Assembly: GCA_030528145.1 (NCBI GenBank)
Contig: JAUMZK010000013.1
Location: forward strand, 1-64,000
From: Actinomycetaceae bacterium
Lineage (GTDB): Bacteria > Actinomycetota > Actinomycetes > Actinomycetales > Actinomycetaceae
Length of the DNA: 64,000 nt
Direction: 5' to 3'
Part shown: one piece after another, positions 1 to 64,000 of the stretch
How the letters are laid out: the number at the start of each line of letters is the position of its first letter
How positions within the stretch are numbered: the stretch's first letter is position 1
The notes under the pieces: generated by a model
The model's database searches: none
The model's input: only the letters and a program-made list of their open reading frames with translations
Told to the model about the DNA's origin: nothing
Translations under genes and position numbers: made by a program

Positions 1-380
1 CCCATGTCAGCCCTTGCGGCGAGAACCGCGAAGGCGCCCGCAACCAGCATTAGTAGGGACAGACCAGCCAACGCCGCAGCGGGCACGCCGGTCTTTGCCA
101 GCGGATGCTTCGTTGATGACACTATTGGAGAGACCGGCTTGGGGATTTCTTGCCCACGTTCACAGTGAATTTGCCGATTTCTTTGCCGTTGCTGTCCTTG
201 ACAACAACCGCTATCTTGCTGCCGGGTTTCGCGTCCTTTCCAAGCATGACGGTAATGTTGCCGTTCTTGTCGAGGACGGCTTTGCCGGGACCGGCTATTT
301 CTACTGTGGTACCTGGCTTGACGGGACGGCCCGTGTTCGGCACGACCACTGGCTTGTCCGGCGTGGTGGTGGCGTCACCC
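1..380 (-). pseudogene. Frameshifted C-terminal part of a sortase-anchored surface protein
   Basis: The minus strand encodes a repeat-like, Lys/Gly/Val-rich segment typical of Gram-positive wall proteins (about 84 codons from 376 down to a stop at 122-124). In another frame directly downstream lies a full cell-wall sorting signal: IPKPVSP, then LAKTG (codons at 87-101), a hydrophobic stretch and Arg. The two parts fit one protein if a single base was lost near 155-165, where GGC AAA GAA ATC seems to have become GGCAAGAAATC. LAKTG is an LAxTG-type sortase substrate motif, common in actinobacteria. The upstream part is cut off by phage-like DNA near 380, and the C-terminus runs off the window. 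Hence a truncated, frameshifted remnant; the anchor itself is intact. Confidence 0.6.
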
Positions 381-389
381 CTCCCTGCC

Positions 390-497
390 CAAATGCGCGG
401 CGCGCTTGATGCAATCGCTAACCGCAACAACCTCAGACCACCATTGACAACCACCCCTCCACCCACCACCAACCACGTAGAGGAGACCAAACAATGA
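390..497 (+). pseudogene. C-terminal fragment of a phage gene preceding the endolysin
   Basis: An open + frame ends RGALDAIANRNNL..., followed by a Thr/Pro-rich tail and a TGA at 495-497. That TGA overlaps the endolysin start in an ATGA arrangement, as in translationally coupled phage genes. No upstream part of the gene survives, because the neighbouring DNA belongs to the oppositely oriented surface-protein remnant. The family cannot be recognised from about 35 residues. It is reported because the coupling supports a phage origin for this patch. Confidence 0.35.
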
Positions 498-1179
498 AGA
501 ACTGGAATTGGCTTGAAGCCGATGAAAACCGGATCCTGACCAAGCACTACACGCCAGGTAGGAGCAGTAAGCGCATCGATAAGGTAGTAACCCACCACAA
601 TGCAGGAAACCTAACAATCCCCGACATTTACAACGTGTGGCAAACGCGCCCCGCCTCCGCCCACTACCAGGTCGACTCCAACGGTCGGATTGGACAACTC
701 GTGTGGGATAAAGATACCGCCTGGCACGCAGGCAACTGGGATGCTAACACCACCAGTATCGGTATCGAACACGCCGACGCATCCTCAAACCCGTGGCACA
801 TTTCCGACGCCTGTTTGGACAACGGCGCGCACCTTGTTGCGGCGATCTGCCACTTCTACCAACTCGACCGCCCGATGGGGGGAAAGAACGTGTTCGCACA
901 CAGCCACTTCTCGACCACTGAATGCCCAGCTTCCCTCGCAAGTCACCAACGCGTGAAGTATATGGAACGCACCCAATACTGATACGCCCAGATAACTGGC
1001 ACTAAACCCGCCCCAACTCCCGCGCCCGCGAAGCTAGCCTCTGCAACGTCAAATATCGATGCGCTGGCAGACGCAGTCATCCAAGGCGAATATGGCAACG
1101 GCGAGGAGCGCAAGCGCCGACTTGGAGTCAACTACGCCGCTGGCAGCAGCACGTGAACGAAAAGCTTGGCATCGACTAA
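494..1179 (+). pseudogene. Decayed prophage endolysin: N-acetylmuramoyl-L-alanine amidase plus Cpl-7 (CW_7) repeat
   Basis: The intact part (494-982, 162 aa) is an Amidase_2 domain, which cleaves the amide bond between MurNAc and the stem peptide. Zinc-ligand candidates are H34 (THHN), H136 and C144 (TTECP), with AWHAG and IGIEHA motifs also present. It starts at ATG 494 after a GGAG box. A TGA at 980-982 ends the frame. The same frame then continues through an Ala/Pro linker into a typical CW_7 wall-binding repeat (IDALADAVIQGEYGNGEERK, about 1057-1115). The repeat breaks near 1140, apparently by loss of one base, and resumes as QQHVNEKLGID with TAA at 1177-1179. The gene therefore carries two lesions. 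The amidase domain could still be made alone, without its wall-binding domain. Confidence 0.7.
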
Positions 1180-1204
1180 ACCAGCGACATGTCGCTTACC
1201 AATC

Positions 1205-1247
1205 GGTCCTGTCATCAACCTTATTCGAGGTGGTGACAGGACCTTTT
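1205..1247 (+). terminator. Rho-independent terminator of the endolysin remnant
   Basis: A 10-bp perfect stem (GGTCCTGTCA at 1205-1214, TGACAGGACC at 1234-1243) is followed by TTTT. It lies 25 bases downstream of the endolysin TAA and has the same orientation, so it is probably the old phage terminator. Confidence 0.75.
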
Positions 1248-1313
1248 GCTGTGTTTACAAGCTAGAAGCAGCCACTTTTCGTGCTGCCAACATGATGCCG
1301 TCCTTGCGCCACA

Positions 1314-1460
1314 TGAACTGCCCCGAGTTTTGTTCCTAGGTGCTTGCCCTACTATTCATTCTCTCTGAGGTGTGCGCCTCAGTCCAATACGCGGTTTCAA
1401 CTTCTGCGGGAGTCTTGTATAGCCTAACGCGGCAATTCCACTGCGAATTTCGGCAACCCG
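1314..1460 (-). mobile_element. IS3-family insertion sequence remnant (3' end of transposase and terminal repeat)
   Basis: TGAACTGCCCCGAGTTTTG at 1314 resembles the terminal repeat of IS3-family elements. The minus strand upstream of it reads as the last residues of an IS3-type integrase: IAALGY in one frame, then KTPAEVETAYW in another, with TAG at 1336-1338. These fit the conserved C-terminal LGYxTPxEvE..Y motif, broken by a frameshift. No other part of the element is present, and 1461-1556 shows no recognisable feature apart from one GAGGRCG-type heptamer near 1536. This is a relic, not a mobile element. Confidence 0.5.
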
Positions 1461-1556
1461 ACACGTGCGCGTGATGGTGATAGGGGTTATAAACCACCAA
1501 GAGACGGGGCGGGCGCGATGCTTCCACCACACCGCGCCCTCGCCACCAAAACGTAA

Positions 1557-3392
1557 CTATTTCACTGCAGCTAGCGTTTCATCCACTGCCTTAGCTACTA
1601 GTTGCGCGTCAGAACCGACAACCGCATGCCAGGTTTGGGGGGCTATTTTCACGAGGACGATGCCTGCGTTTTCACCACCACTAACGCCCGCGTCCTCGCG
1701 AACCTGGACACGCAACCGAGTTACCGCCAACGGTTGCAAATCCACAATGTTCCCGGTTCCACCCAGCAGCGACAGCAGCTTTTCCGCCACTTCCCGATGC
1801 CCAGTAGTAACCTCGCGCTTATCTGCTTCCGCAGTGTACAAAGGCATGTCGTCGATAGAACGCACCCCCGTCCCCACGCTACCGACCACAGCGAAAGCAC
1901 CAGCTGGCGCCCCAGTAGCAACGGTAGCCTTAGCGCCAACTGCAGCGGCGTCCTCGTCGCGGTAATCCAGGAAAATTACCAGCAGCATAGCAGTGAAGAA
2001 CGCGGCAGCCACCGCCCCACCGTACAGCGGAATGTTATTGAACGCGGGAATAGTCAGCACAGACGTGAACACGAACGCCTTAGTAGTGACGCCTCCGCCC
2101 AAACCAATAATGACGCCGCCCACCAGACATCCGACCAGCATGCGCGGATAAATTTTCTTGTAACGCAAGTGGATGCCATACAGGGAAGGCTCCGAAATAC
2201 CACCCAACAGACCTGCAGCGAGGGCGCCAATAGCGGTTTGCCGCCGCGCCACCTCTTTGTCACGGATTGCCAGGTAGAGGACGCCTGCGGTAGCACCGAA
2301 ACACGCAAAGTTCCACGTTCCCATTGGACCCTGAATGTAGTCGTACCCTAACTGTTGAATGTTCAGCAACATTACCGCGTTCAGCGGCCAGTGCAACCCG
2401 AGTGGCACCATGAACGGGTAGGCCAACGGAATAAGGATGGCAAAAATAAGCGGCGACACGTTGTTTATGGCGGCCAGCCCGTTAGCCACCCACGCACCAA
2501 TGTACACGCCCAAAGGACCAATAATGAACGCGGTCAGTGGCAGCATCACCAGCAACGCAAAAAACGGCACGAAGATCAGTTGCAAGTTCTCGGGAATTAT
2601 CCGCTTCAGTCCCTTCCACAGTGGCCCCAGCACGGCGGCCATCAGCAGTGGTGGGAACACTTGCGAGGAGTAATTGAAGATAGTCAACGGTAACCCGAAA
2701 ATATCAATCACGGTCACTTCAGACCCCGCAATGTGCAGTTTGTAGGCCGCGTCGGATGCCCCCATCGCGGTAAAACCAGGCAACATCACGACCGCCATAA
2801 TAGCGAAACCAACCCACGGGTCAGCGTTCAACTTTTTGGACGCATTGTAAGCAACCATTAGCGGCAAGAACACGAACACAGACTGCCACATCAGGTTGAC
2901 AGCGCTCCAGGATGGCCCCAAATCAGTACGGGGGTCCGCCCAGTTGCCAATAATTCCCAAGGTGGACATTATCGACATGAAAGTAATAATGAGCGACGCG
3001 CCCAGCAGAGGCTGGATCACCGGGCGGAAAGAATCGGAAAGGAATTCAAAGAAATTGTCTACGAACACGAATTTCCCGCGCACGCCCCCACTGCGGGCGG
3101 CGGCTTTCACTTCCGCGTCACTGAGTTGCCGCCCTGCGCGTGCCGATTCCGCCATTTGGGGCAACGCATTAATTTCGTTAAACGCCGTCTGTACGGCTCC
3201 ACCCATTATCACCTGGTAGCGCTGCCCACTTTGGGGCACCGTGCCCATCACGCCTTTTATATTTTCGAGGGCGGCCCCGTCCACTTTAGAGGAGTCCACC
3301 AATTGGAAGCGCAGCCGAGTGGCACAGTGCGTCAGGCTTTGCACGTTTTCGGGACCACCAACAGCGGTGAGGATTTGTTCAGCTCGATTCAT
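1557..3392 (-). CDS. PTS sugar permease, EIIB-EIIC of the beta-glucoside type with an extra Cys-less EIIB-like domain
   Basis: 611 aa. It imports and phosphorylates a sugar using phosphate relayed from the upstream EIIA-HPr-EI protein. Residues 1-85 are an EIIB domain with the phosphocysteine C23 in THCATRLRF. Residues about 105-470 are a polytopic EIIC with the beta-glucoside-family signature GISEPSLYGIHLRYKK. The last about 85 residues repeat the EIIB pattern (AEKLLSLLGG..N, then AVTRLRVQV), but Cys and the preceding His are replaced, so this copy cannot carry phosphate. No EIIA domain is attached. ATG follows a GGGGAAA box and lies 9 bases after the upstream stop, so the two genes form an operon. 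Beta-glucoside, sucrose or trehalose are plausible substrates; the sequence does not decide. Confidence 0.88.
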   Translation of the reverse strand: MNRAEQILTAVGGPENVQSLTHCATRLRFQLVDSSKVDGAALENIKGVMGTVPQSGQRYQVIMGGAVQTAFNEINALPQMAESARAGRQLSDAEVKAAARSGGVRGKFVFVDNFFEFLSDSFRPVIQPLLGASLIITFMSIMSTLGIIGNWADPRTDLGPSWSAVNLMWQSVFVFLPLMVAYNASKKLNADPWVGFAIMAVVMLPGFTAMGASDAAYKLHIAGSEVTVIDIFGLPLTIFNYSSQVFPPLLMAAVLGPLWKGLKRIIPENLQLIFVPFFALLVMLPLTAFIIGPLGVYIGAWVANGLAAINNVSPLIFAILIPLAYPFMVPLGLHWPLNAVMLLNIQQLGYDYIQGPMGTWNFACFGATAGVLYLAIRDKEVARRQTAIGALAAGLLGGISEPSLYGIHLRYKKIYPRMLVGCLVGGVIIGLGGGVTTKAFVFTSVLTIPAFNNIPLYGGAVAAAFFTAMLLVIFLDYRDEDAAAVGAKATVATGAPAGAFAVVGSVGTGVRSIDDMPLYTAEADKREVTTGHREVAEKLLSLLGGTGNIVDLQPLAVTRLRVQVREDAGVSGGENAGIVLVKIAPQTWHAVVGSDAQLVAKAVDETLAAVK

Positions 3393-3401
3393 CGTTTTCC
3401 C

Positions 3402-5942: not shown

Positions 5943-5965
5943 AGCGTTTCCTTTCACCGGAAAAT

Positions 5966-5995
5966 TATTTACGCCATTGGATATAAGAACTTTAA
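5966..5995 (-). promoter_or_regulatory. Candidate sigma-70-type promoter of the PTS operon
   Basis: On the minus strand TTAAAG (5995-5990) and TAAATA (5971-5966) are spaced by 18 bases and lie 24 bases upstream of the TTG start. The spacing and AT-rich context fit a housekeeping promoter. No operator for a sugar regulator could be recognised. Confidence 0.45.
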
Positions 5996-8037: not shown

Positions 8038-8086
8038 CGGCGCCCTCGAAAACTGCCTTGTAATACGCATTATTACGAGGACGCCG
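8038..8086. repeat. Hairpin built from two inverted CGAGGRCG motifs
   Basis: In the 255-bp spacer between tRNA-Tyr and the ferredoxin reductase gene, CGGCGCCCTCG (8038-8048) faces CGAGGACGCCG (8076-8086), an 11-bp inverted repeat with one mismatch. A small GTAAT/ATTAC repeat sits inside the loop. Each arm contains one copy of the dispersed heptamer. There is no T-run, so it is not a classic terminator, although it could stop the upstream transcript. The rest of the spacer shows only direct copies of ACTAAGGC near 8145-8175. Confidence 0.6.
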
Positions 8087-8174: not shown

Positions 8175-9611
8175 TTAGTTAGTTTCCTCCGGGCTGCCAA
8201 TGAGGTCTAGGTCTTCGCCCTCGCTAATTTCGTCCCGGCTGATACGTGTCATTGCTTCACGTGAAACAACTTTGATGCGTTCGCGCCCACCCCGTCCGCC
8301 GGGGACTTCCCCAAAAGCCTGCCCTAAAGTCTGCTCGTACTGGTTTAGCAGCTCCCAGCCCTGCCAGGTGGTAAACCGTATGCCCCGCTCGGTTAGGAGG
8401 TGTTCCATGGCAGCGTGCCCCACTTCGCGTCCGGAAGCGTGCAGTTTGCCCGCCTGGGCGTCCTCGACAAGATGCCCAATAGTTTGCTGTGCATCAGATT
8501 TAGTGGACCCGATCAAACCTACCGGACCGCGCTTTATCCACCCAGTTGCGTAAACGCCGGGCACAATTTCGCCCCGCTCTGTGGTGACGCGCCCTTCCGC
8601 GTTAGGCACAATACCGTGTTTTTCGTCAAAAGGCAGACCTTCAATTGGGCTAGAGAAGTACCCCACCGCCCGGTACACTGCCTGCACCGGCCATTCCGTG
8701 GTTTTACCCGTGCCAGACACGCTGCCATCACCGTTCAGTTGGGTGCGTTCGGTAACGAGGGCGCGCACATTGCCGTCCTCGTCCGCCAAAATTTCCACCG
8801 GTGATTCAAACAAGTGAATGTGGATGCGCCGCGAAGCCTGGTGGTCTTCTACCATCGCGTAGTTAGTGAGCGTCTTGACGACCTGACGCGCCTGGTTGGA
8901 GGCTTTCAGTGCTTTCTGGCTGCCTTCGTCAAAATCGAAGTCGGCTTGGTCAACTATCACGTCCACATCGTTTTGCTTGCCCAGTTCGCGCAGTTCCAGC
9001 GGAGAAAACTTTACTTGCGCCGGACCGCGCCGCCCGAACACATGCACGGTTTCGATGGGATTAGCTTTCAGGGCTTGGTAAACGTTGTCCGGTATTTCCG
9101 TAACCAACATGTCATCTGCGTGCTTAGCAAGCACCCGCGCTATGTCTAAAGCCACATTCCCCACGCCGAGGACGGCCACTTCCTTCGCGTCTAAAGTCCA
9201 GTCCCGACTGTGGTCAGGATGCCCGTCATACCAGTGCACAAAATCGGCAGCGCCGTACGATTGCGGCAAATCCACGCCCGGAATATTCAACGGATAATCC
9301 CTATCCGAACCCGTAGCAATGACGATAGCATCGTAACGTTCCTGAAGTTCGGCAATGCTCACATCCTTGCCCACATTAACGTTTGCGAGCAACTTAATAT
9401 CCCCGCGCTGCAAAATTTTGTAAAGCGCATCAATGATCTGCTTAATGCGGGGGTGGTCCGGGGCAACACCGTAACGAACCAACCCATAAGGGGCCGGGAG
9501 GCGCTCAAAGAGGTCGATGCTAACGTCCTCGCCAGACTTAGACAAAATATCGGAAGCATAAATTCCCGCCGGTCCGGCACCAATAACAGCAACATTTAGA
9601 CGTTCAGACAC
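8175..9611 (-). CDS. fprA: Ferredoxin-NADP+ reductase, adrenodoxin-reductase type
   Basis: 478 aa. Two-dinucleotide-binding flavoprotein that moves electrons between NADP(H) and ferredoxin. Seen: the FAD motif VAVIGAGPAGIYAS at residues 7-20, PYGLVRYGVAPDHP typical of the family, the NADP-binding region AVLGVGNVALDIARVL, FGRRGPAQVKF, and the C-terminal GWIKRGPVGLIGSTKSDA. The length fits the mycobacterial FprA family. It starts at GTG 9611 with GAGAGG 5 bases upstream. It is a single gene with no ferredoxin partner nearby. The last 40 residues are acidic and variable. Confidence 0.92.
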   Translation of the reverse strand: MSERLNVAVIGAGPAGIYASDILSKSGEDVSIDLFERLPAPYGLVRYGVAPDHPRIKQIIDALYKILQRGDIKLLANVNVGKDVSIAELQERYDAIVIATGSDRDYPLNIPGVDLPQSYGAADFVHWYDGHPDHSRDWTLDAKEVAVLGVGNVALDIARVLAKHADDMLVTEIPDNVYQALKANPIETVHVFGRRGPAQVKFSPLELRELGKQNDVDVIVDQADFDFDEGSQKALKASNQARQVVKTLTNYAMVEDHQASRRIHIHLFESPVEILADEDGNVRALVTERTQLNGDGSVSGTGKTTEWPVQAVYRAVGYFSSPIEGLPFDEKHGIVPNAEGRVTTERGEIVPGVYATGWIKRGPVGLIGSTKSDAQQTIGHLVEDAQAGKLHASGREVGHAAMEHLLTERGIRFTTWQGWELLNQYEQTLGQAFGEVPGGRGGRERIKVVSREAMTRISRDEISEGEDLDLIGSPEETN

Positions 9612-20808: not shown

Positions 20809-21461
20809 AGCGTGTCCTCCTTGGTCGGATAGGCGCTAGATAGCGAAGGATCGTCTGGGCGGTGCGCCTGAACCCACGCGATTTGCGCCTTGGTTGGACC
20901 TTCGACCTTGCCCAAATAGTAGTCGGTGTCTGCAGCCCCTTCTACCATGGGGTGCGGTGCCGCCAACATGCCCTCGGCAAGTGGGGCCAAAATCTGGTCT
21001 TTTTCGTAAATCAGACGGTCACGGTGTTGTTCCGCCAACTCAAAATCGTTTGTCATGGTCAACGCCCTAGTGGGGCACGCCTCAATGCAAAAACCGCAGA
21101 AGATACACCGCAAATAGTTGACCTGATAGACCCGCCCGTAACGTTCACCCGGACTGTACTGGGCTTCGGGAGTGTTTACCGCTGCTTCCACCAAAATGGC
21201 GTCAGCCGGGCACGCCCACGCGCACAATTCGCAACCAATACATTTTTCCAAACCGTCAGCGTAACGGTTCAGTTGGTGCCGCCCATGGAAGCGCGGCTGT
21301 AAGTACGGTCCCTCAAATGGGTACTGTTCGGTTACTGTGGGGCGGAAGAAGGATGAAATGGTAACCCCGAAGCCTGCCCAGGGGGCAAAGAATTGCCCAA
21401 TGGGTCCCTTCGGATCCTTTTCGTATTTCATGTCTTCCCTGGTGGGATTCCGTTTGCTCAC
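20805..21461 (-). CDS. nuoI: NADH-quinone oxidoreductase subunit I
   Basis: 218 aa peripheral-arm subunit that carries clusters N6a and N6b. Two 4Fe-4S motifs are present, [16 protein letters not shown] and [16 protein letters not shown]. The N-terminal segment [22 protein letters not shown] is the membrane-contacting helix region. GTG 21461 overlaps the nuoH stop (GTGA). Confidence 0.96.
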
Positions 21462-22762
21462 TTTTGACCTTCTTTCACGACCGCCACTTCGGTACGTCCA
21501 GCGCGCGGACTTACGGGCATGACCTGACCAGGCAACGGTGGGAGGGGGTAACCGCCCGCCAACGGATCAAATTCGGACGTGTCTTCGTCCTCGGACTGGG
21601 TCTTTTCCCTGCCGGTAAAGGACACGATTACGAGGGCGATGGCGAACAATACGGCTATACCGATGAGCATTTGCATCATGGTCAAGTTTGCGTACAGGGC
21701 AATGGCGCGCATCAGCGAGACTACGATTACCCAGCCGAGGGCGATAGGCATTAACCCCTTCCAGCCCAGATCCATCAGTTGGTCGTAACGGTAACGCACC
21801 AGCGTACCGCGCACCCAAATAATAGTGAAGGCCACCACCCACAGTTTGATGACGAACCACAGCATTGGCCACCAACCAGAATTTAGTGCGCCACCCAGGA
21901 TCAGATCCCCAAAGGGAAAACGCCACCCGCCCAAGAACATGGTTACGGTGACTGCGGAAACGTTGAACATGTTGATGTATTCCGCCAGGTAGTACCAACC
22001 AAATTTCATCGAAGAGTATTCGGTGGAGTGCCCTGCCACCAGTTCGGATTCACATTCTGTGAGGTCGAAAGGCAAACGGTTGATTTCCGCAATCGAGGAA
22101 ATGTAGTAGATGCAAAATGCGGGGAATAATGCGAAGCACCACCAAATGGGACTTTGCGCGCCCACAATTTCAGAGGTCTTCATGGACCCAGTCACAATGA
22201 ACACTGCCACGAGCGACAGTCCCATAGCCAGTTCGTAGCTGATTACTTGGGCCGAGGACCGGACCGCACCCAGCAACGGCAGCGTGCCTTTAGAAGACCA
22301 ACCACCCAAAATGATCCCGTACACGCCAACCGACGCGATTGCCAGAATGTAGAGCCCCCCAATTGAAGGATCCATTAGTTGTAATGGCGTGGAGTACCCG
22401 AAGATGTTTACGTTCGGTCCGAAGGGAATTACCGCCATAACCATGAATGATGCGAAGGCAGCAACGGCGGGTCCCAGCAGGTACAAAAAGCGGTCCACAC
22501 CTTTTTTGTTGAAGTCTTCTTTAAGCAGCAGTTTCAGGGCGTCACCAAAGGACTGGAACAAGCCCAACGGACCGTGGACGTTCGGACCGGGACGGGTCTG
22601 CATGCGCCCTAATCCACGCCGTTCCACCCACAGCGCCATGATCACGGTAACGATTAAGAACACTACGATAAATGCGGCTTTGATGAGAGACAGCCACCAG
22701 GTTTCCTGGCTAAAGTCGGCTGTCTTGCCGGCTACTTGTGGTAGTAGTTGCAGAGCGTTCAT
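21458..22762 (-). CDS. nuoH: NADH-quinone oxidoreductase subunit H
   Basis: 434 aa, eight to nine helices; forms most of the quinone-binding chamber at the junction of the two arms. Seen: [62 protein letters not shown] and [20 protein letters not shown]. The frame is open further upstream, but ATG 22762 (MNALQLLPQ) overlaps the nuoG stop as ATGA and is the start. The C-terminal about 55 residues are a variable hydrophilic tail. Confidence 0.95.
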
Positions 22763-25296
22763 CGGTTCACCTCCCCTTTCGCGGCTACGCGAACCTGAGT
22801 TCCACTGGTTGCCCCCAGGCTGGCCAGCACGTGGCTGCCTGCCGAGCATTCCGGCAGCCAGACGACGCGCTCAACAATATTTGCAATGTGTGCGGGCAAA
22901 GTTATTTCGCCCGCGTCGGTTGACACGGTTACTTCGGCGCCTTCGGCAATATTCCATTCTTTGCCGAGGACGACCACCGGCTTGCGCCCAGCCCCGGTCA
23001 GTGCCGGGTTGCCAGCTTGCATTAGCCCTTCGTCAAGTAGTGGCTTGTGCGTTGCCAGCACGGCGCTACCGGCAGGTGGGGCGGTCAGTTCGCTGGCGGC
23101 AGTGGCAGGAGCAGTCACTTTTTCGCCGCTGTAATCCATTAGTTCGTTGGCTTCTGCGTGAACGTCCGCGAGAGTTTGCAAGCCCAGCGGTTTGTTCAGT
23201 TCTGCGGCAATTTCGCCCAAAACTTCCCGGTCGCTCAGTGCCCTGGTAGACAGGGCTTGCGCGAAGGGGGCGAGCCGTCCTTCCCAGTTAATGAAAGTGC
23301 CTGCTTTTTCCGCTACCGGTGCCACGGGGAAGACCACGTCTGCGACCTCGGTAATAGCAGTTTGGTTCACTTCCAAAGCCACAATGAAACCGGCTTGACG
23401 AATTTCTGTCAGATCTACCGGCAGGTCGCGCACGTCTACGCCGCCAATTACGAGGGCGTCCAGGTGGGCTTTGAGCATTTCGGTTGCACCCAGCCCTGGT
23501 TCTGTGGGGGTTTGTCCCCACTTTTCCGTCAGGTCGACCCCTTGATCTAGAGGACGACCGAAGGGCAACAGGTTTGGCAGCAAGCCCGCCTCGACGCCAG
23601 CGCGGTCACCACTGCGACGCGGCACCCACGCCAAGCGGGCGTTCGTACGAGCAGCCAGGCGGGTCACCGCACTGAGCACACCCGGTATGCGAGCAGCACG
23701 TTCACCCACCAGAACAATACCGTTTTCACCCAATTTACCGGCAAGTTCTGCCAGCATTTCGACGTCGGAGCCACCGGCAATAGAATCTAGAATTTCCACT
23801 TCTGTACCGGGGGCGGCAGGAATTAAAGTTGCCGCCATCTTTTGCGTGCCCACAGTAGCGAACGGCGCAATAGTGGCAATTTGGGTGCCAGCGCGGCTGG
23901 CTTTACGCAAACGCAAGAACAGGGTTGCGCATTCGTCCTCGGGTTCGAGGGCGACCAACAGCACCTGCCCGGCGTTTTGTAAATCGTTGTACGTGACGTT
24001 CAACCCGCTGCCAGCCACCACACTGGCGAGGAACTGGCTTTCTTCGTCGCTGTGAATGCGGGCGCGGAAGTCAACGTTATTGGTTCCCAGCGCAACGCGA
24101 GCAAATTTGGACCACGCATAGGCGTCCTCGAAAGCCAAACGCCCACCGGGCAGCAACCCCACGCTGGTGGCTTTTGCCAATCCTTTCGCAGCTACGTCCA
24201 GGGCGTCTTCCCACGAGGTCGACACTAGCTTTCCGTCCACACGCACCTGCGGCATCTTTAGTCGTTGGTCTGTGAACTGCCATTGGAAAGCGAAGCGGTC
24301 TTTGTCGGAAATCCACTCTTCATTGACTTCCATGTCGGTAGCCGCCATACGGCGGGTGATGTGACCGCGACGCACGTCGTTGCGGATCTTCGCACCGGAA
24401 GCGTCGTGTTCTGTCACGGCCCCAGTGGAAACCAAGTCGAAGGGGCGGGCGCGGAAACGGTAAGTCGCAGACGTGAGCGCACCCACAGGACAAATTTGAA
24501 TAATGTTTCCCGCGAAATACGAGCTGAAACGCCGTCCCGACAAATCCTCCATCGCCGGAGTGACCGGACCTTCGTGGAATCCCTGAGCATAACCCGCCTG
24601 CCCACTGGGACCAGACATGTCGGTGCACTGCGCGGTCTTAGCAGCTTCGTCCTCGAACCCTAAAGTTTGGGAGTCAAAACGCCCAATTTGTTCGCCCGTA
24701 AAGTGGTGGTGATCTAGTGGCGAGGAACCGCCACCCCGACCCTGCAACGCAATGAACGGGTCGCCTGCGATCTGCTGTTGGAAGCGCACGCAGCGTTGGC
24801 ACAAAATACACCGGTCGCGATCCAACAAAATGGTTGACGACAGTGACACGGGCTTGGGGAAAGTGCGCTTGGCTTCACCAAAGCGGCTTTCTTCTTGACC
24901 GTGCGATAACGCCTGATTTTGCAGTGGGCATTCCCCGCCCTTGTCACAAATCGGACAATCCAAAGGGTGGTTTATCAGCAAAAACTCCATAATGCCGTTT
25001 TGCGCCTTTTTGGCAACTGGCGAAGTGCGTTGCGTAAACACTTCCATTTGCGGCGCCACGGTCATAGTGCAAGCCGGTTGCGGCTTCGGCATTTTCGCTA
25101 CTTCGCCCGCCCGGTTGGGCATGGCTACTTCAACCAAACATTGGCGGCAGGCGCCCACTGGGTCCAACAGCGGGTGGTCGCAAAAACGCGGAATGTGAAT
25201 GCCGAGCTTTTCCGCCGCCCGAATAATCAGCGTGCCCTTAGGGACATCGATGGACTGCCCATCAATTTTTACGGACACGAGGTCTGATGTGCTCAT
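22759..25296 (-). CDS. nuoG: NADH-quinone oxidoreductase subunit G
   Basis: 845 aa, the largest peripheral-arm subunit. The N-terminal 2Fe-2S part has CDHPLLDPVGACRQCLVEV, then LDCPICDKGGECPLQNQALSHG, DRCILCQRCVRFQQQIAG and ICPVGALTSATYRF for 4Fe-4S clusters. A molybdopterin-oxidoreductase-like fold follows. Between the third and fourth motifs there is an extra stretch (SQTLGFEDEAAKTAQCTDMS..., about 40 residues) that appears longer than in typical NuoG. ATG 25296 overlaps the nuoF stop (ATGA) and has GGAGG upstream; the longer open frame to 25350 lies inside nuoF. Confidence 0.95.
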   Translation of the reverse strand: MSTSDLVSVKIDGQSIDVPKGTLIIRAAEKLGIHIPRFCDHPLLDPVGACRQCLVEVAMPNRAGEVAKMPKPQPACTMTVAPQMEVFTQRTSPVAKKAQNGIMEFLLINHPLDCPICDKGGECPLQNQALSHGQEESRFGEAKRTFPKPVSLSSTILLDRDRCILCQRCVRFQQQIAGDPFIALQGRGGGSSPLDHHHFTGEQIGRFDSQTLGFEDEAAKTAQCTDMSGPSGQAGYAQGFHEGPVTPAMEDLSGRRFSSYFAGNIIQICPVGALTSATYRFRARPFDLVSTGAVTEHDASGAKIRNDVRRGHITRRMAATDMEVNEEWISDKDRFAFQWQFTDQRLKMPQVRVDGKLVSTSWEDALDVAAKGLAKATSVGLLPGGRLAFEDAYAWSKFARVALGTNNVDFRARIHSDEESQFLASVVAGSGLNVTYNDLQNAGQVLLVALEPEDECATLFLRLRKASRAGTQIATIAPFATVGTQKMAATLIPAAPGTEVEILDSIAGGSDVEMLAELAGKLGENGIVLVGERAARIPGVLSAVTRLAARTNARLAWVPRRSGDRAGVEAGLLPNLLPFGRPLDQGVDLTEKWGQTPTEPGLGATEMLKAHLDALVIGGVDVRDLPVDLTEIRQAGFIVALEVNQTAITEVADVVFPVAPVAEKAGTFINWEGRLAPFAQALSTRALSDREVLGEIAAELNKPLGLQTLADVHAEANELMDYSGEKVTAPATAASELTAPPAGSAVLATHKPLLDEGLMQAGNPALTGAGRKPVVVLGKEWNIAEGAEVTVSTDAGEITLPAHIANIVERVVWLPECSAGSHVLASLGATSGTQVRVAAKGEVNR

Positions 25297-26591
25297 CGGG
25301 CGCCTCCTTCGTAAAACAGGTTGGACTTTTCGTACGGGAACAGTTCCCACGCGGGGGTGCGGTACCCGGCTTCAAACTCTTCGCGGAAGAATTTGAGTGC
25401 CGCCGGAATTGGGGTAGCCGCCGCATCACCCAAGGCGCAGAAGGACCTTCCGGCAATATTTGAACATATATCTTCCATCAGTTCGAGGTCGCCTGGGCGC
25501 CCCTCGCCTTTCACCAAGCGGTGCATTATTTGCTTCAGCCAGTACGTGCCTTCGCGGCACGGCGTGCATTTACCGCACGATTCGTGTTGGTAAAAGTCAA
25601 TCCATTGCGAGATGACGCGCACTACGGAAGTGGTTTCGTCGAAAACTTGGATAGCGCGGGTCGCGAGCATAGAACCGGCTGCCCTGACGTCCTCGTAAGT
25701 GAGCGGCACATCCAATTGTTCAGCCGTGAAAATGGGGGCAGAAGAACCCCCTACAGCCCAGAACTTTAGTTCGTGACCAGGGCGAATACCACCAGCCAGT
25801 GCCAACAGTGTGCGCATTGTGATGCCCAGCGGCGCTTCGTATTGCCCAGGTCGGACAACGTGCCCGGAAATGCTGAACAATCCGTGCCCTTTAGACCGAT
25901 CCGAACCCATAGAAGCATACCAGTCGATCGAGTTTTTAAACACGCCGGGCACCTGGGAAATGGTTTCCACGTTGTTAATTACGGTGGGACGGGCGTAAAG
26001 CCCTTCTACTGCGGGGAATGGTGGCTTCAGGCGGGGGTGTCCGCGCCGACCTTCCAAAGAATCCAGCAGCGCCGTTTCTTCACCACAAATGTAGGCGCCC
26101 GCTCCGCAGTGGGCAACGATCTTAAGGTCGCCCAGGATACCCGCCGCAGTGGCCTCTTTAATCGCGTTCAAAATACGGCGATAAACGTGGACGACTTCAC
26201 CACGCAAATACAAGAACGCGTGCTGGCAACCAATAGCGTGCGAAGTAATAGCCATACCTTCAATGAGGCAGTGCGGATTCGCCATAATTTGAGGGATGTC
26301 TTTGCAAGTTCCAGGTTCGGACTCGTCGCCATTTACCACCAGGTAGCGCGGTCCGCCGTCGTCTGGGGGCAGGAAGGACCATTTCAAGCCCGTGGGGAAG
26401 CCAGCACCACCACGTCCCGCCAGCCCGGAGGCTTTTACGGCGTCGACAACTGCCGCTGGTTCCATGGTCAGGGCTTTCTTCAAACCCTCGTACCCGCCCA
26501 CGGACAGGTAGTGTTCTAAAGTCCAGGACTGGTCTTCGCCCCAATGCTCACTGAGGATCGGGGTGAGCGTGTCCAATTTCAGTGCGCTCAC
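25293..26591 (-). CDS. nuoF: NADH-quinone oxidoreductase subunit F (NADH/FMN-binding)
   Basis: 432 aa catalytic subunit that oxidises NADH. Seen: GRGGAGFPTGLKWSF (FMN/NADH site), YICGEETALLDSLEGRRGHPRLKPP, and the N3 cluster ligands ESCGKCTPCREGTYWL plus the later cysteine in SFCALGDAA. GTG 26591 overlaps the nuoE stop (GTGA). No deviation from the family noticed. Confidence 0.96.
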   Translation of the reverse strand: MSALKLDTLTPILSEHWGEDQSWTLEHYLSVGGYEGLKKALTMEPAAVVDAVKASGLAGRGGAGFPTGLKWSFLPPDDGGPRYLVVNGDESEPGTCKDIPQIMANPHCLIEGMAITSHAIGCQHAFLYLRGEVVHVYRRILNAIKEATAAGILGDLKIVAHCGAGAYICGEETALLDSLEGRRGHPRLKPPFPAVEGLYARPTVINNVETISQVPGVFKNSIDWYASMGSDRSKGHGLFSISGHVVRPGQYEAPLGITMRTLLALAGGIRPGHELKFWAVGGSSAPIFTAEQLDVPLTYEDVRAAGSMLATRAIQVFDETTSVVRVISQWIDFYQHESCGKCTPCREGTYWLKQIMHRLVKGEGRPGDLELMEDICSNIAGRSFCALGDAAATPIPAALKFFREEFEAGYRTPAWELFPYEKSNLFYEGGAR

Positions 26592-42726: not shown

Positions 42727-42830
42727 AGCCAAAAAGTGAGCGGCGTCCTCGCCCCAGAAACCCCGGAAAAGGATCCGAATCGCGCGATCGCCTACCACCT
42801 GCACTCAACTGGCGCAATTACCGAGGGCGA

Positions 42831-53677: not shown

Positions 53678-54019
53678 TGAACAATACTCCGCACTGGGAA
53701 AATTCTTAGGACTAACCCAGTTTACACGGAAGTTTTACCCACACTTCCTCTGAGCATCCCAAACGTGCAGAAAACAACCATTATTTGTTGAGAATTTAAT
53801 CACCCATTTTGTGGCGACATTAAAGAAAAATTCACAGCTTTGCATTTTTCTACACTTCGCAGCAGTATAAGGCATCTTAGTGGATTGGTTTATTTTTATT
53901 TGTCGGCTTTTCAGAGCCAAATTTTGTGTACCGAAACGACCCCACACTAAAGCGGGCACGCCCTGCCTCGAAGAACTAAACCAACAGTTAGCCAAAGTAG
54001 CCCGCAAGCTTCGTCCTCG
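53678..54019. other. AT-rich intergenic spacer upstream of the envelope locus
   Basis: 342 bases without a convincing gene. The stretch 53760-53940 is clearly richer in A and T than its surroundings. It should hold the promoter of the 913-aa gene (a TAAACT on the minus strand near 53720 is a weak -10 candidate) and the end of the next gene. The open frames here have no family resemblance or ribosome site. Confidence 0.5.
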
Positions 54020-57968: not shown

Positions 57969-58547
57969 TCATGCACTGTGCCCCTGAATAAGAGCCAGTA
58001 CTTCGGCACGACTAGCCTGATCTTGTCTGAAAATACCGCGCAAAGCGGAAGTTACTGTGGTAGCTCCCGGTTTTTGTATTCCCCGCATAGTCATGCATAA
58101 ATGTTCTGCTTCTATTATTACTGCGACACCATGCGCTTGCAGTTTTTCGGCTACGGCATCAGCTATTTGTGCGGTAAGGCGTTCCTGAACCTGAGGACGA
58201 CGGGCGAATCCTTCCACGCACCGCGCTAATTTAGACAGACCAGTTACTTTACCTCCTTGCGGCAGGTATGCCACATGGGCTTTCCCGAAAAAAGGCAACA
58301 GGTGGTGTTCACACACGGAATAAAAACTGATGTCACGGACCAGCACTATTTCGTCGGTGCCAATGTCAAAGACGCGTTCTAGATGCGCAGTGGGATCTTC
58401 GCGCAGCCCACTGACTATTTCTTGCCATGCTCGCGCCATGCGGGAAGGCGTTTCTTGCAAGCCTTCCCGTGTCGGGTCTTCGCCGATAGCCACTAACAAT
58501 TCGTGGATAGCAGTGGCTACCGCTTCCGCGTCGTATCTGTTATCCAC
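57969..58547 (-). CDS. folE: GTP cyclohydrolase I
   Basis: 192 aa. It forms dihydroneopterin triphosphate from GTP, the first folate step. Zinc and active-site motifs: [20 protein letters not shown], and [26 protein letters not shown] 58547 overlaps the ftsH stop by 8 bases, so the two are coupled; 56 bases separate it from folP. Confidence 0.96.
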
Positions 58548-60570
58548 CTAGTTCACCTTTGGCGAGGGCGTCACCTGACTGGGTTGGTGTAGCCGCCGGG
58601 TCTGCCTCGGTTTCTTTGGCGGTCGGATCGCTGACGGGGTTACCGAAACTTCCTTCCTTGGCAGCGTCGGCGTTGTAAGCCCAGATTTCGCGCACTGGTT
58701 GTTTTACGATATCGGCAAAAATTTCCTCTAGCTCGCGTTCGAGGACGGTTTCTTCCGCCAGTAATCTGGAGGCAAGCCGGTCCAAAACGTGCCGGTTGTT
58801 GGAAAGGATCTGCCAGGCTTCCCGGTTGGCCGTGTCCAAAAGACCGTGTACTTCGCGGTCAATTAATGCCGCGCTTTCACCCGAAACGCTGGCACCTTGG
58901 GTCATTTCGCGCCCCAGGAAGGGTTCAGTGTTTTCGCTGCCGAGTTTGACCGTACCGACCTTACTGCTCATGCCGTAGTCGGTCACCATTTTCCGGGCAG
59001 TGCGCGTGGCTTTTTCGATGTCGTTAGACGCGCCGGTGGAAGGATCTTGGAAGATCAGTTCTTCGGCAACGCGCCCACCCATTGCATATACTAATTCGTC
59101 CAACAACTGGTTGCGCGTAACCGAATAGCGGTCTTCGGTGGGCATAACCATGGTGTAGCCCAGCGCACGTCCGCGCGGCAAGATAGTAACTTTCGTGACC
59201 GGATCAGTGTAATGCAGGGCCGCCGCCGCTACTGCGTGTCCGCCCTCGTGATATGCCGTAACCAGTTTGTCGTGGTCGTTCATAACGCGGGTGCGTTTTT
59301 GCGGTCCGGCAATAACCCGGTCGATGGCTTCGTCGAGGGCGCGCTCGTCAATTAGGTCCGCATTGGACCGTGCTGTCAACAGTGCGGCTTCGTTCAGCAC
59401 GTTCGCCAAGTCTGCCCCCGCAAAGCCTGGGGTGCGTTTCGCAATTTGGCGCAGGTCCACATCGTCTGTCAGCGGCTTGTTCTTGGCGTGAACTTTCAAT
59501 ATTTCAAAGCGCCCGTTCAAGTCGGGGGCTTCCACTGCTATTTGCCGGTCGAAACGTCCGGGGCGCAGCAAAGCTGGGTCGAGGACGTCTGGGCGGTTCG
59601 TGGCGGCTATCATAATGACGTTGGTGTTTTCGTCGAAGCCGTCCATTTCCACCAGCAGCTGGTTCAGTGTTTGTTCGCGTTCGTCGTTGCCTCCGCCCAT
59701 GCCGGTACCCCGGTGGCGCCCAACGGCATCGATTTCGTCTACGAAAATGATGGCGGGCGCTGCGGTCTTGGCTTGTTCGAACAGGTCGCGGACGCGGCTG
59801 GCGCCAACACCTACGAACATTTCCACAAATTCAGAACCGGACATGGAGTAGAATGGTACGCCTGCTTCCCCCGCAACGGCTTTAGCCAGCAGGGTTTTGC
59901 CAGTTCCCGGAGGACCATACAGCAGTACACCTTTGGGAATTTTGGCACCAAGACGGTGGAATTTTTCGGGGGTGGACAGGAATTCGCGTATTTCTTCCAG
60001 TTCTTCCACGGCTTCATCTACGCCCGCAACGTCACCAAATGTAACTTTGGGTGCGTCCCCATCTTGGGATTTGACTTTGGATTTGCCAATTCCCATTATC
60101 TTCCCAGCCCCACCTTGCATGCGGTTGGTCAAGAAAACGAAGATGCCCACCATGATTACCATCATGACAACCAGCTGCAGTATAGATTCCCACCACGATG
60201 GCGTGGGATACAGCGAGTTGTAGCCCTTCTTGGGAGCGGCTTTTTCTACCAGGTCGGTGATGCGCTCGCTTTGCCCAGTGGTGTAAACGAACTGCACCTT
60301 TTTGGTAGGTTGCGGATTTTTCCACACGCCCCGCACTTCATTTGCCTGGGGTTTGTAGCCTTTTGTCAGGTCGAGGGCGACCACGTGCGTACCGTCATTT
60401 ACTACTGCCCGCGCTACCGTACCATTTTTCAAAAGGGCGATGCCTTCGGAGGTGTCTATGACTGTGGGTGCAAATACGCGGGAAATTCCCCATAACAGCA
60501 AACCAATAATAAATATTGGCACTAGTATGGCGGCGATGGATTTTTTGGGCGGCTTTTTTGCAGTTGCCAT
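58540..60570 (-). CDS. ftsH: ATP-dependent zinc metalloprotease FtsH
   Basis: 676 aa membrane AAA+ protease for quality control of membrane and cytosolic proteins. Two N-terminal helices (about 11-30 and 126-147) flank an extracytoplasmic domain. The AAA domain has Walker A GPPGTGKT, Walker [10 protein letters not shown] and the second region of homology [20 protein letters not shown]. The protease motif is YHEGGHAV, where the third residue is Gly in place of the commoner Ala; His and Glu are intact. The C-terminal about 60 residues are acidic and disordered. It opens the ftsH-fol unit downstream of hpt. Confidence 0.96.
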
Positions 60571-60578
60571 TTACTTCC

Positions 60579-61145
60579 TTAGTTCTCGTAAACGTGTGGC
60601 GCTAGCGTGGCCACGAATGGAAGATTGCGGTATTTTTCGTTATAGTCCAGTCCGTAGCCGACCACAAATTCGTTGGGAATGTCAAACCCGACGTATTTCA
60701 CGTGTACGTCTGCTACTTGGGCTTCTGGTTTGCGCAGGGCGGTGAAGACTTCAACGGAGGCAGCCCCGCGTGCCTTCAAATTGGAAACCAGCCATGACAG
60801 GGTCAGCCCGCTGTCAATAATGTCTTCAATTACGAGGACGTGGCGTCCGGTGACACTGTTGTCCAGGTCTTTCAGGATACGCACCACACCACTAGATTTC
60901 GTACCAGAACCGTAGCTGGATACTGCCATCCAATCCATGGTGGTGTCGATGTGTAGTTTTCGCAGCAAGTCTGCCACTACCATTACGGCACCTTTGAGCA
61001 CACCGATCACTACCACGTTCTTGTCCCGGTAGTCCCGGTCAATTTCGGCGGCTATTTCACCGAGGCGCGCTTGCATTTGCGCTTCGCTGATAAGCATTTC
61101 TTTAAAGGCGGTGCCCACATCTTTTGCGTCCACCCAAATAATCAT
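60579..61145 (-). CDS. hpt: Hypoxanthine phosphoribosyltransferase
   Basis: 188 aa purine salvage enzyme making IMP or GMP with PRPP. Seen: VIGVLKGAVMVVADLLR, SSYGSGTKSSG, the PRPP loop VLVIEDIIDSGLT and FDIPNEFVVGYGLDYNEKYRNLP. ATG 61145 overlaps the tilS stop (ATGA). The tilS-hpt-ftsH order is conserved in many bacteria. Confidence 0.96.
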   Translation of the reverse strand: MIIWVDAKDVGTAFKEMLISEAQMQARLGEIAAEIDRDYRDKNVVVIGVLKGAVMVVADLLRKLHIDTTMDWMAVSSYGSGTKSSGVVRILKDLDNSVTGRHVLVIEDIIDSGLTLSWLVSNLKARGAASVEVFTALRKPEAQVADVHVKYVGFDIPNEFVVGYGLDYNEKYRNLPFVATLAPHVYEN

Positions 61146-62200
61146 AGTTGTTTTCTAAAAATTAGTTGATTCCTGGCGGACTTTCGTCTCACGCTCACAC
61201 CTGGTAGATTCAGGGTCCCCTGCCCCCGCCAATTAGTTACCAGTTGGTCGATGCGTTGCAAGTGCTCGAATGTGAGCGCACGCCCCCCTAATTTCCCCGC
61301 CGCATTGCGGTACACGCGCCGCCGGGTAGCAGGCGGATGACCAGCCAAAACTTCTGTATTAAAGCGGGTTTCGTCCTCGTCTGTTGCCACCGTCGCCTGC
61401 CTTGCGACCAGGTGCGCGTAATATTCCAAAGCATCGTCGTCAGCGCGCGTCAATGCCGCCGTTTTCGCGAGGGCGGCAGTCGGGTCCATTCCCAAAGCCA
61501 TAGTGAGCGCGGGCAACGCAATTTCGCGAATAGCGGAGCGGCGCAATGGTGTACCGTCGGCGGCTTTCCACGGACCGTCTACTTTGTTGGTGGGGTCTTT
61601 GACGTATTCCAGGTCGAGGGCGGTGCAGCAGGCTTCAGTTTGGGCGCGCCGGATTCCCAGGAGTGGCCGCATTATTGGTCCGCATTCGCGCATACCTGCC
61701 AGGGTGCGGGTGCCGGATCCACGTCCTAACGCTAGCAGTGTCCCCTCGGCTTGGTCGTCCATAGTGTGCCCCAACCAGATGGGCTTGTCATCCAGTCCCA
61801 GTTGTTTTAGGGCGAGGGCGAAGGCGCGGTATCTTCCTTCGCGGGCGTCTCCTTCCGGACCACTGTTGCCGCTCAGCTCCCCAGGATCAACAGTGGCAAC
61901 CGTGGCGTGTGCGCCCAGTTCTTGTAATAAGGCTGCGACTTGTTCGGCTTCTGCCGCCGAGTGGGGGCGAATCTGGTGGTCTACTGTGATGGTGTGGACG
62001 GGCAGCCCCGCCCGCGTTGCCAAATCAATGGCGCAGACCGCGAGTGCCAGCGAATCCGCGCCTCCGGAGCACCCAACTATTACGGGGTTAGTGTATCCGA
62101 CGAGGGCGCGGCGCACCGCCAATGATACCGGGCGGACATCGGGGTGGGGTTTAGGGCCGATCAGTCGGGAGGCTAATACCAACGTATTGTTCCTGTTCAC
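61142..62200 (-). CDS. tilS: tRNA(Ile)-lysidine synthase
   Basis: 352 aa N-type ATP pyrophosphatase that converts C34 of tRNA-Ile(CAU) to lysidine, allowing AUA decoding. Seen: the PP-loop VGCSGGADSLALA at residues about 42-54, ITVDHQIRPHS, GHTMDDQAEG, and RPLLGIRRAQT. The C-terminal domain is short, as in other actinobacteria. GTG 62200 overlaps the dacB stop (GTGA). Confidence 0.94.
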   Translation of the reverse strand: MNRNNTLVLASRLIGPKPHPDVRPVSLAVRRALVGYTNPVIVGCSGGADSLALAVCAIDLATRAGLPVHTITVDHQIRPHSAAEAEQVAALLQELGAHATVATVDPGELSGNSGPEGDAREGRYRAFALALKQLGLDDKPIWLGHTMDDQAEGTLLALGRGSGTRTLAGMRECGPIMRPLLGIRRAQTEACCTALDLEYVKDPTNKVDGPWKAADGTPLRRSAIREIALPALTMALGMDPTAALAKTAALTRADDDALEYYAHLVARQATVATDEDETRFNTEVLAGHPPATRRRVYRNAAGKLGGRALTFEHLQRIDQLVTNWRGQGTLNLPGVSVRRKSARNQLIFRKQL

Positions 62201-63657
62201 GGCAGGGCTGCCAGGGCGGTGGCGGCTTTGTCGACGGCCTCAATTACACCGCCGGCAGCTCCAGAGGCGTAGCCGTCGACAATTATTGCGAACGTCAAAC
62301 GCTTGCCCGAGCGGGTAGTGATATAACCGGAAAGGGAGCGACTGTGCGACAAAGTACCGGTTTTGGCGCGAACTACCCCGGCGCCCTCGGTATCGAAAAA
62401 CCGGTCGTGTAAGGTGCCGTCCAGGCTAGCAACTGGCAGTGCGGACGGAATTGAATGCATTTCGGGTCCGCTGCTTTCCAGGATTTTTACGAAGGCGTCT
62501 GCGGATATGCGTCCTTTTTCTGACAACCCGGAACAGTCGCGGTTAGCTACTTCGGCGCGGGGGATTTTCAGGTTTGCAATGACGCTTTGAACGACTTTGT
62601 CCGCACCGGCAAAAGTGGCAGGTTGTCCGGCTTTGGCGGCGGCGGCGTGGCAAATGCCTTCTGCCAAGGTGTTGTCAGAGTCTTTCAGCGTCTCGTGGAT
62701 TACTGCTGCTAAAGGTGCAGATTGGACGCTCGCCAGGCGTTCGCCTTCTTTGGCTTTGCTTTGGGTGGTTTCGCTGACGGTAATGCCGGCTTCTGTAAGG
62801 CGGTGAGCAAATTCCGTGGCGACCACCTGCACGGGGTCATCATAGTAGCGGTATTGCGTGCCATCTATGCGTCCTGTGTCGATTGCCAAGGGCACTATTT
62901 TGCCTACAAACTCGGTGTTCCCTTCCTCTGTCCAGTCCGGGTGCGTATCGGGTTTACCGTAGTATGTGGTGTCAATGTTCAGCCGCACTGACCCCACTTT
63001 TTCCTTCTTCAGTTTGGCGGCAGTGGCGGCAGCGAGGTCGCCCAAACCAGCGTGCCCGTTAGTCAGGCGGGCCTGTCCTTTGCCACTGCTTAGCAGCATG
63101 TCGCCCTCGCCAATTAGGTTCAATGTGCCGTCACTGTACGTGGTGTACGTGGGAAAACGGTAGTTCGGTCCCAGAATTTTCAGGGCGGTAGCGGCAGCTA
63201 CCAGTTTTGTCGAGGACGCTGGCACCAGTGTTTCTTTCGGGTTGATTGCCCCCAGGTCTTTACCGTCTGCCCGCACTAGGGCGGATATTTTGGCGGGCGT
63301 GGCGGCGGGATTTGGCGAGGGCGGTGGGGGGAGCGCGCCTTCGCCTTCCTTCTTTTCTGGCGGCTTTGTCCCGTTGTTGCCGCTGGCGGCTGTGGCGTTC
63401 ACTGTGTCCACATCTGTTTTCAAAGTATTCAGGATTGCCGCCACTTTTTGGGCATCAACTGGGGTTTCCTGGGGTTTAGAGAAGGTCACTTTTGCGAGTC
63501 TTAACGGTTTGAATGCAGGGAGGCGTTGCGGGTCAGATACGGGTGGCTTAGTTGTCAGTATGCCTGGTACTTTGTCGAAAGTATCGGCCGTACCATAAGC
63601 ACCCACAGCCACCAGAAAGGTCGAAACTAAAACGGTAACAACTGCTTTCCGACCCAC
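62197..63657 (-). CDS. dacB: D-alanyl-D-alanine carboxypeptidase/endopeptidase (PBP4, peptidase family S13)
   Basis: 486 aa from GTG 63657. Exported low-molecular-mass penicillin-binding protein that trims or cleaves peptidoglycan cross-links. An N-terminal hydrophobic segment (KAVVTVLVSTFLVAVGAYG) serves as signal or anchor, followed by a Pro/Lys/Gly-rich linker to about residue 125. The penicillin-binding motifs are SSTK (SxxK), SDN (SxN, in LKDSDNTLAEG) and KTG (AKTGTLSHS). A GGGGGG stretch 5 bases before GTG 63657 favours this start over TTG 63669. It leads the dacB-tilS-hpt-ftsH unit and diverges from ppa across 79 bases. Confidence 0.92.
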   Translation of the reverse strand: MGRKAVVTVLVSTFLVAVGAYGTADTFDKVPGILTTKPPVSDPQRLPAFKPLRLAKVTFSKPQETPVDAQKVAAILNTLKTDVDTVNATAASGNNGTKPPEKKEGEGALPPPPSPNPAATPAKISALVRADGKDLGAINPKETLVPASSTKLVAAATALKILGPNYRFPTYTTYSDGTLNLIGEGDMLLSSGKGQARLTNGHAGLGDLAAATAAKLKKEKVGSVRLNIDTTYYGKPDTHPDWTEEGNTEFVGKIVPLAIDTGRIDGTQYRYYDDPVQVVATEFAHRLTEAGITVSETTQSKAKEGERLASVQSAPLAAVIHETLKDSDNTLAEGICHAAAAKAGQPATFAGADKVVQSVIANLKIPRAEVANRDCSGLSEKGRISADAFVKILESSGPEMHSIPSALPVASLDGTLHDRFFDTEGAGVVRAKTGTLSHSRSLSGYITTRSGKRLTFAIIVDGYASGAAGGVIEAVDKAATALAALP

Positions 63658-63736
63658 GAAACCCCCCAAAATCTAGTAACTATTTGTCCAGTCTACCTGT
63701 AGCATTGAAAGCAATTACAACGCGAAAGAGGAGACT

Positions 63737-64000
63737 ATGGAATTCGACGTCACCATCGAAATCCCTAAGGGCAACCGAAACAAGTACGAAATTGACCACG
63801 AAACTGGGCGCATACGTTTGGACCGCATGTTGTTCACGTCTACACGTTACCCTGACGATTATGGTTTTATTGATAACACTTTAGGCGAGGACGGCGACCC
63901 ACTGGACGTCCTCGTGCTGCTTGAAGAACCCACGTTCCCTGGATGCGTGATCCGGTGTCGAGCGTTGGGCATGTTCCGTATGCGTGACGAAAAGGGCGGT
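63737..64000 (+). CDS. ppa: Inorganic pyrophosphatase (start only)
   Basis: The first 88 residues of a family I soluble pyrophosphatase, cut by the window end. Seen: [26 protein letters not shown] and [24 protein letters not shown] with the metal-binding aspartates. ATG 63737 has AGAGGAG 5 bases upstream. It removes pyrophosphate from biosynthetic reactions. Its place opposite dacB is the same as in mycobacteria. Confidence 0.95.

Follow-up and report, generated by a model that had tools for sequence, protein, structure and literature searches.

To our knowledge, uptake sequences have been established only in the Neisseriaceae, as DNA uptake sequences (DUS), and in the Pasteurellaceae, as uptake signal sequences (USS), and both families are Gram-negative. 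Here we describe an octamer, CGAGGRCG, from a 64,000-base stretch of the genome of an Actinomycetaceae bacterium (contig JAUMZK010000013.1, positions 1 to 64,000; hereafter the window). Judged from sequence, this octamer is probably a self-recognition DNA uptake sequence of a naturally transformable actinobacterium with Tad pili.

The DUS resemble CGAGGRCG in being present thousands of times in genomes of about 2 Mb (some 1900 in N. meningitidis and nearly 6000 in K. oralis), in forming dialects that follow phylogeny, and in lying at coding as well as intergenic sites (PMC3630211). Mobile elements of Neisseria have been found through their atypical DUS distribution (PMC7371117). In contrast, the DUS differ from our octamer in sequence, phylum and envelope and are associated with type IVa pili instead of Tad/Flp-type pili; their inverted terminator pairs are usual (PMC3630211), whereas for CGAGGRCG such pairs are rare. 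The USS share with it a short core, information in the flanks, dialects within the family and genome-wide enrichment, and ComN/PpdA has been proposed as their receptor (PMC12616744). They differ in sequence, lineage and machinery, and for them preferential uptake has been reported (PMC7811141). In the titles and opening lines of abstracts of the open-access papers that came up in searches on actinobacterial or Gram-positive uptake, no uptake sequence of actinobacteria is reported.

The earlier note on the window had reported about 165 copies of GAGGRCG, divided about 95 to 70 between the strands, and an approximately eightfold enrichment over some 20 expected. Our recount agrees closely. We found 176 copies, 98 on the plus and 78 on the minus strand (GAGGACG 41 and 39, GAGGGCG 57 and 39), and base composition predicts 10.7 + 13.6 = 24.3 for the two heptamers, an excess of about sevenfold. 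The true unit is longer than GAGGRCG and is better written CGAGGRCG. This octamer occurs 133 times in the window (1..64000; 75 copies on the plus and 58 on the minus strand, about one per 481 bases), against 6.8 expected from composition and 3.1 from an order-2 Markov model. The whole genome, of which the window is a part, has 1,854,458 bases in 17 contigs and contains 1652 forward and 1648 reverse copies (3300, or one every 562 bases). As a control for whole-genome counts we took the same word spelled backward, which gave 66 and 52. The genome-scale excess on both strands is thus confirmed, and the near-even strand split that the note described holds as well, since the imbalance of the window is local and vanishes genome-wide. 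The backward-word control is unreliable at high guanine plus cytosine (GC) content: in one relative (G029) it indicated about 9-fold enrichment where codon shuffles gave 1.5-fold.

An order-5 Markov model predicts 62.7 + 70.3 = 133.0 copies of the two heptamers in the window, against the 176 found. We rejected it as a fair null because shorter pieces of the motif are over-represented too and absorb the signal; shuffled codons and non-coding DNA were therefore used instead. For coding DNA, synonymous codons were shuffled 50 times inside each gene of a sample of 404,853 bases, consisting of the window and 18 further stretches. Here 678 coding copies stand against 54 (standard deviation 7) in the shuffles, a 12.5-fold excess, and the two forms of CGAGGRCG are the top octamers of this sample. 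In an enlarged sample of 464,853 bases, a 5,000-base part of contig 7 is included twice (the overlap of stretches L013 and L065), and the first sample is free of this double count. For non-coding DNA, every plausible reading frame was masked in the enlarged sample, leaving 35.2 kb with 55 copies against 1.8 expected, a 30-fold excess. A first, looser set of 69.5 kb (106 copies against 3.7), on which the table of flanking bases rests, was contaminated by uncalled genes such as the frame 21458-22849. The strict set was also enriched in three relatives, with 5 to 13 kb each (G002, 6 copies against 0.4; G007, 6 against 0.2; G013, 6 against 0.5).

Could the motif simply follow from a bias in codons, codon pairs or mutation context? 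One codon position, the third, begins 561 of the 678 coding copies, several GC-rich relatives reach 1.2 to 1.5 fold in coding DNA, and loosely defined non-coding DNA shows an excess in two genomes (G004, 31 against 12.0; G036, 11 against 2.6); all of this speaks for such a bias. However, the copies that begin at the third position are divided between both orientations, and both orientations are raised. When copies are classed by orientation, phase and R base, 11 of the 12 classes are up 3 to 28 fold (the twelfth had 1 copy against 0.9), C is disfavoured at the variable base, relatives of similar GC content such as G017 and G022 stay near 1-fold, and the excess in strict non-coding DNA is 30-fold. 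We consider this explanation extremely improbable, and as the main cause of the motif it is ruled out by the codon shuffles together with the strict non-coding counts. The codon-pair bias that the earlier note had listed among its ideas falls with it; the note was right that several codon phases are used, but the concentration on the third position qualifies this.

The asymmetric flank consensus, drawn from 907 sites of the enlarged sample, is WTKNCGAGGRCGNC. Position -4 prefers A/T, position -3 T and position -2 G/T, and position +9 prefers C/T and avoids G, so that the loosely conserved flanks may be written WTKN upstream and NC downstream of CGAGGRCG. This lean holds for the first non-coding set as well as for those coding phases that have many copies. 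At the sixth base A (392 copies against 30.1) and G (393 against 28.5) are equally strong, T is raised (86 against 16.2) and C is depleted (5 against 19.9). Other single-base variants occur 0.4 to 1.5 times as often as expected, except for some changes of the first two bases, which reach 1.9 to 2.7. The spacing is near random, with a mean distance of 494 and a coefficient of variation of 0.96, and 2-kb bins have a mean of 3.9 and a variance of 4.0. Distances below 50 bases are scarce (6.8% against 9.6%), and in the enlarged sample 27 of the 32 pairs of copies less than 30 bases apart are inverted.

Is the motif also kept in place between relatives? Reciprocal-best gene pairs link this genome to stretches from two congeners, 39 pairs with one and 63 with the other. 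Their median identity is 71% and 66%, and where an amino acid is unchanged its codon is the same in only 41-42% of cases. Retention was measured against a per-codon expectation; a control of identical amino acid tuples was dropped, having too few windows. Where the amino acids are unchanged, motif octamers are identical in 12 of 23 cases (2.3 expected) in one congener and 15 of 31 (3.4 expected) in the other. This is 4.5 to 5.2 times the expectation, as compared with 1.08 and 1.15 times for all other octamers. At such sites the motif is therefore conserved in place within the genus.

The distribution of the motif across taxa was traced in 37 genomes, represented by 7 to 465 kb each, with the codon-aware test; many of the motif-negative calls are based on 20 kb or less. 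Six genomes are positive, at 3.2 to 13.4 fold: this genome (13.4), its congeners (5.0 and 5.8, mainly as CGAGGGCG) and the more distant G007 (5.2), G013 (5.1) and G021 (3.2). The sharpest long form of a dialect is ATTKCCGAGGGCGR in G007. Marginal values were obtained for G025 (1.9), G023 (1.6), G029 (1.5) and G033 (3 copies against 0.8), and the remaining 27 genomes lie between 0 and 1.4, the highest z values among them belonging to GC-rich G004 (1.32, z 3.5) and to G011 (1.35, z 2.9). A tree of FtsH was made for the 17 genomes whose stretches contained the gene. All six positives fall inside one clade of nine rows (support 99/97) together with three negatives, and the motif label requires 3 changes on this tree, not 1, a number as low being reached in 14 of 500 shuffles. 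Within this sample the motif is thus bound to one clade, inside which it was either lost or independently sharpened.

Other raised words were seen in several relatives. In G011 (L049-L051, L092), words like CGAGGCCTCG are up about 2- to 5-fold (CGAGGCC, 191 against 100.8; CGAGGCCTC, 23 against 4.4) and are possibly an overlapping-dyad relative of the motif. In G028 (L076-L078) the octamer GCGATCGC is raised (28 against 9.8), and CGACGTCG is raised in G006 (L047, L048; 54 against 22.6) and in G026 (L082; 8 against 0.4).

The genome carries the genes that transformation through a Tad-type pilus would employ. ComEA (207 residues, with SLBB and helix-hairpin-helix domains) overlaps ComEC (L064:7760-9244), which has 494 residues and an N-terminal Competence domain, and DprA is encoded on contig 5. 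The ComEC frame measures 476-540 residues here and in 11 relatives, both motif-positive and motif-negative, and about 670 residues or more in most others. There are two TadA-type ATPases, with PF00437 above the cut-off and TIGR03819 just or well below it. By our reading, the Tad cluster in L066 has separate TadB/TadC-like and pilin-like frames, and the cluster in L065 has a single TadB/C-like frame with a Flp-like pilin; two TadB/C-like frames gave no match in NCBIfam. Within L066:2292-14531, a UvrD/RecB-type helicase-nuclease pair, which we read as AdnAB-like, also lies close to the Tad-type cluster.

The gene layout looks the same as that of Micrococcus luteus, likewise an actinobacterium with two tad clusters and comEA/comEC, the tad-2 cluster encoding a fused TadB/TadC and Flp; transformation there requires both clusters (PMC4322843). 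It differs in that no uptake sequence is reported for it, and the phrase 'uptake sequence' does not occur in PMC4322843 or PMC8467076.

In the mechanism that we propose, a putative surface receptor, probably a minor pilin of one Tad/Flp-type cluster, would bind the duplex motif in either orientation. The candidate minor pilins are the frames L066:13124-14531 and L065:7432-8087. The pilus, with ComEA and ComEC, would import motif-bearing DNA of close relatives, and this DNA would be recombined by DprA and RecA (the latter is assumed). Across evolutionary time such biased uptake would enrich and preserve the motif, newly arrived foreign DNA would come without it, and related genera would use altered dialects.

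The motif survived the tests by which the earlier note had proposed to refute it: it exceeds a codon-aware null, it is conserved at synonymous sites within the genus, no skew is seen by the replichore proxy described below, and competence genes are present.

The helicase-nuclease pair brings in another possibility, that CGAGGRCG is a Chi-like recombination signal read by an AdnAB-type helicase-nuclease encoded beside the Tad cluster. The Chi of E. coli is likewise an over-represented 8-base word and is tied to recombination; known Chi sequences are short, frequent and variable between species, and a UvrD/RecB-type pair is indeed encoded at L066:2292-8497, with all its NCBIfam matches below the cut-off. 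Chi of E. coli is, however, polar on the chromosome. We used GC skew as a proxy for the replichore and counted only stretches of clear skew. In this genome 168 copies are on the leading (G-rich) and 173 on the lagging strand, so no polarity is seen, and 335 copies on the coding and 343 on the template strand show no bias either. In the other positive genomes the leading/lagging counts were 22/18, 22/26, 61/50 and 15/28, with no consistent skew (G021 had no usable stretch), and the coding/template counts were 61/55, 97/72, 78/58, 26/26 and 22/24, a mild coding excess being seen in G002 and G007. The strong strand polarity of a KOPS-like motif (FtsK-orienting polar sequence) is not seen in the strand counts (1652/1648 and 168/173).

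As a control we took Chi in 250 kb of E. coli K-12, with the positions of origin and terminus, and treated it as we had treated CGAGGRCG. Of 53 Chi copies, 42 were leading and 11 lagging. In coding DNA Chi is 2.8-fold enriched (51 copies against 17.9), and 47 kb of non-coding DNA held only 2, whereas CGAGGRCG reaches 12.5-fold and 30-fold, respectively. Moreover, the flanks of CGAGGRCG are informative, no RecC match was found in G000, G001, G002, G007 and G013 (the search covered these five), and we know of no Chi recognition by AdnAB. A Chi-like site, which was among the ideas of the earlier note, is thus disfavoured, and we regard it as quite unlikely.

Under the proposal that CGAGGRCG is an uptake sequence, regions that lack it are of particular interest. 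In the first sample the longest gap, 6.1 kb, is at the start of contig 9 and contains a large serine recombinase. In the 465-kb sample 1 gap above 5 kb was seen against 0.05 expected, and gaps above 2 kb numbered 19 against 18.8. Eight further regions were chosen around a second recombinase and around seven methyltransferase matches out of eight; the one omitted was the weakest and was below the cut-off. The 150,250 bases of these regions contain 191 copies (1.27 per kb), and the enlarged sample has 907 in its 464,853 bases (1.95 per kb). Their gaps measure at least 8.3 kb, 8.0, 6.6 and 4.9 kb, the three above 5 kb lying within two of the eight regions. The 8.3-kb gap covers AAA_13 and DUF2800 genes and adjoins an N6 methylase, the 8.0-kb gap covers an Eco57I-type methylase and a ResIII-like gene, and the 4.9-kb gap is beside a 5-cytosine methylase and a resolvase. 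Such motif-poor regions may be recent arrivals.

With regard to gene content, the motif-poor islands L134:7754-17454 and L135:7540-11435 hold an N6 methylase, HSDR_N, AAA_13 and DUF2800, and an Eco57I-type methylase beside a ResIII-like gene. Another gene, L017:17651-19999, has RamC_N and protein-kinase domains, is mostly within a motif-free stretch, and is by our reading a lanthipeptide synthetase. A search for integrases found two integrase-family genes, which we read as XerC/D-like.

Methyltransferases raise the further question of whether DNA methylation or a nucleoid-binding protein maintains the site, which would then have no part in uptake. The model for this would be HIP1 of cyanobacteria, a palindromic octamer that is linked to methylation, very dense genome-wide and unclear in function. 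CGAGGRCG is likewise an octamer, of similarly high density, and DNA methyltransferases are matched several times in the genome (2 of PF01555, 2 of PF00145 and 4 of PF07669). However, it is not its own reverse complement as HIP1 is, neither PF01555 nor PF00145 occurs in motif-positive G021 while both are found in motif-negative G022, and 3 of the 7 methyltransferase hits examined have no more than 3 motifs within 2.5 kb. PF07669 occurs in 11 of 12 genomes and therefore does not discriminate by motif. Across the three families and 12 genomes co-occurrence with the motif shows no clean pattern. We consider this explanation rather unlikely.

CGAGGRCG is a maintained word of duplex DNA, free of orientation and specific to one clade, and it is missing from some long restriction and recombinase stretches. 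Judging by analogy, uptake sequences are the best fit to this profile among known systems, and from it we infer a receptor, sequence-specific uptake and a drive that maintains the motif.

Several observations weigh against this reading. ComEC is short, its match is confined to the N-terminal part, and in the congener G002 the best ComEC frame has only 315 residues and follows comEA after a gap. With motif-negative genomes included, 58 of the 59 genomes searched have ComEC, and DprA (29 of 29) and T2SSE ATPases (29 of 29) turned up in every genome searched for them; being nearly universal, this gene set fails to predict the motif. Uptake is the best fitting of the ideas in the earlier note but is supported only in part, the competence genes being equally present in motif-negative relatives. 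Three sisters within the clade, G011, G017 and G022, are without the motif. Strict non-coding DNA, 5 kb in each case, is unenriched in G021 (0 against 0.15) and barely enriched in G001 (1 against 0.4). Beyond the genus only 1 of 8 octamers (0.6 expected, G007) and 1 of 9 (0.4 expected, G013) were retained, numbers too small to judge. When all aligned places are taken irrespective of amino acid, the two congeners share only 13 of 81 and 19 of 123 copies with this genome, so that most copies turn over between these species. Around four of the eight restriction/recombinase hits there are 7 to 10 motifs within 2.5 kb, which is no clear depletion. Finally, 24 of the 27 close inverted pairs touch genes and 3 are non-coding, so the terminator arrangement described for DUS is not matched, and an association of the motif with terminators is unsupported.

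Individual sites in the window illustrate both kinds of location. The strict non-coding set includes an inverted pair whose first half is at 8041..8048 on the minus strand, reading CGCCCTCG on the plus strand, and whose second half is CGAGGACG at 8076..8083 on the plus strand; the latter has ATTA immediately upstream and fits the extended consensus. Two further non-coding copies of this set are at 42822..42829 (plus strand) and 54012..54019 (minus strand). Within called genes, close inverted pairs with copies on both strands are found at 8756..8781 (gene 8175-9611, minus strand), 23934..23953 (gene 22759-25350, minus strand) and 63886..63914 (gene 63737-64000, plus strand), and an inverted pair with copies 39 bases apart is at 1652..1698 (gene 1557-3392, minus strand).

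By its sequence behaviour CGAGGRCG would appear to work like a DUS or USS, and formal DUS or USS status depends on measured uptake. We lean slightly towards the broader view that this actinobacterial clade has independently evolved sequence-specific uptake, with dialects at the level of the genus, built around a CGAGGGCG core, and with a Tad/Flp-type instead of a type IVa pilus, which would be a third origin, and one in Gram-positive bacteria. An uptake sequence in this branch would be a surprise if confirmed. If the reading is true, such a third and independent case with Tad-type pili would mean that self-specific transformation is more general than thought. It would help to explain the origin of uptake sequences, would suggest that a novel type of DNA receptor exists, and would make available a simple tag with which members of this clade could be transformed.

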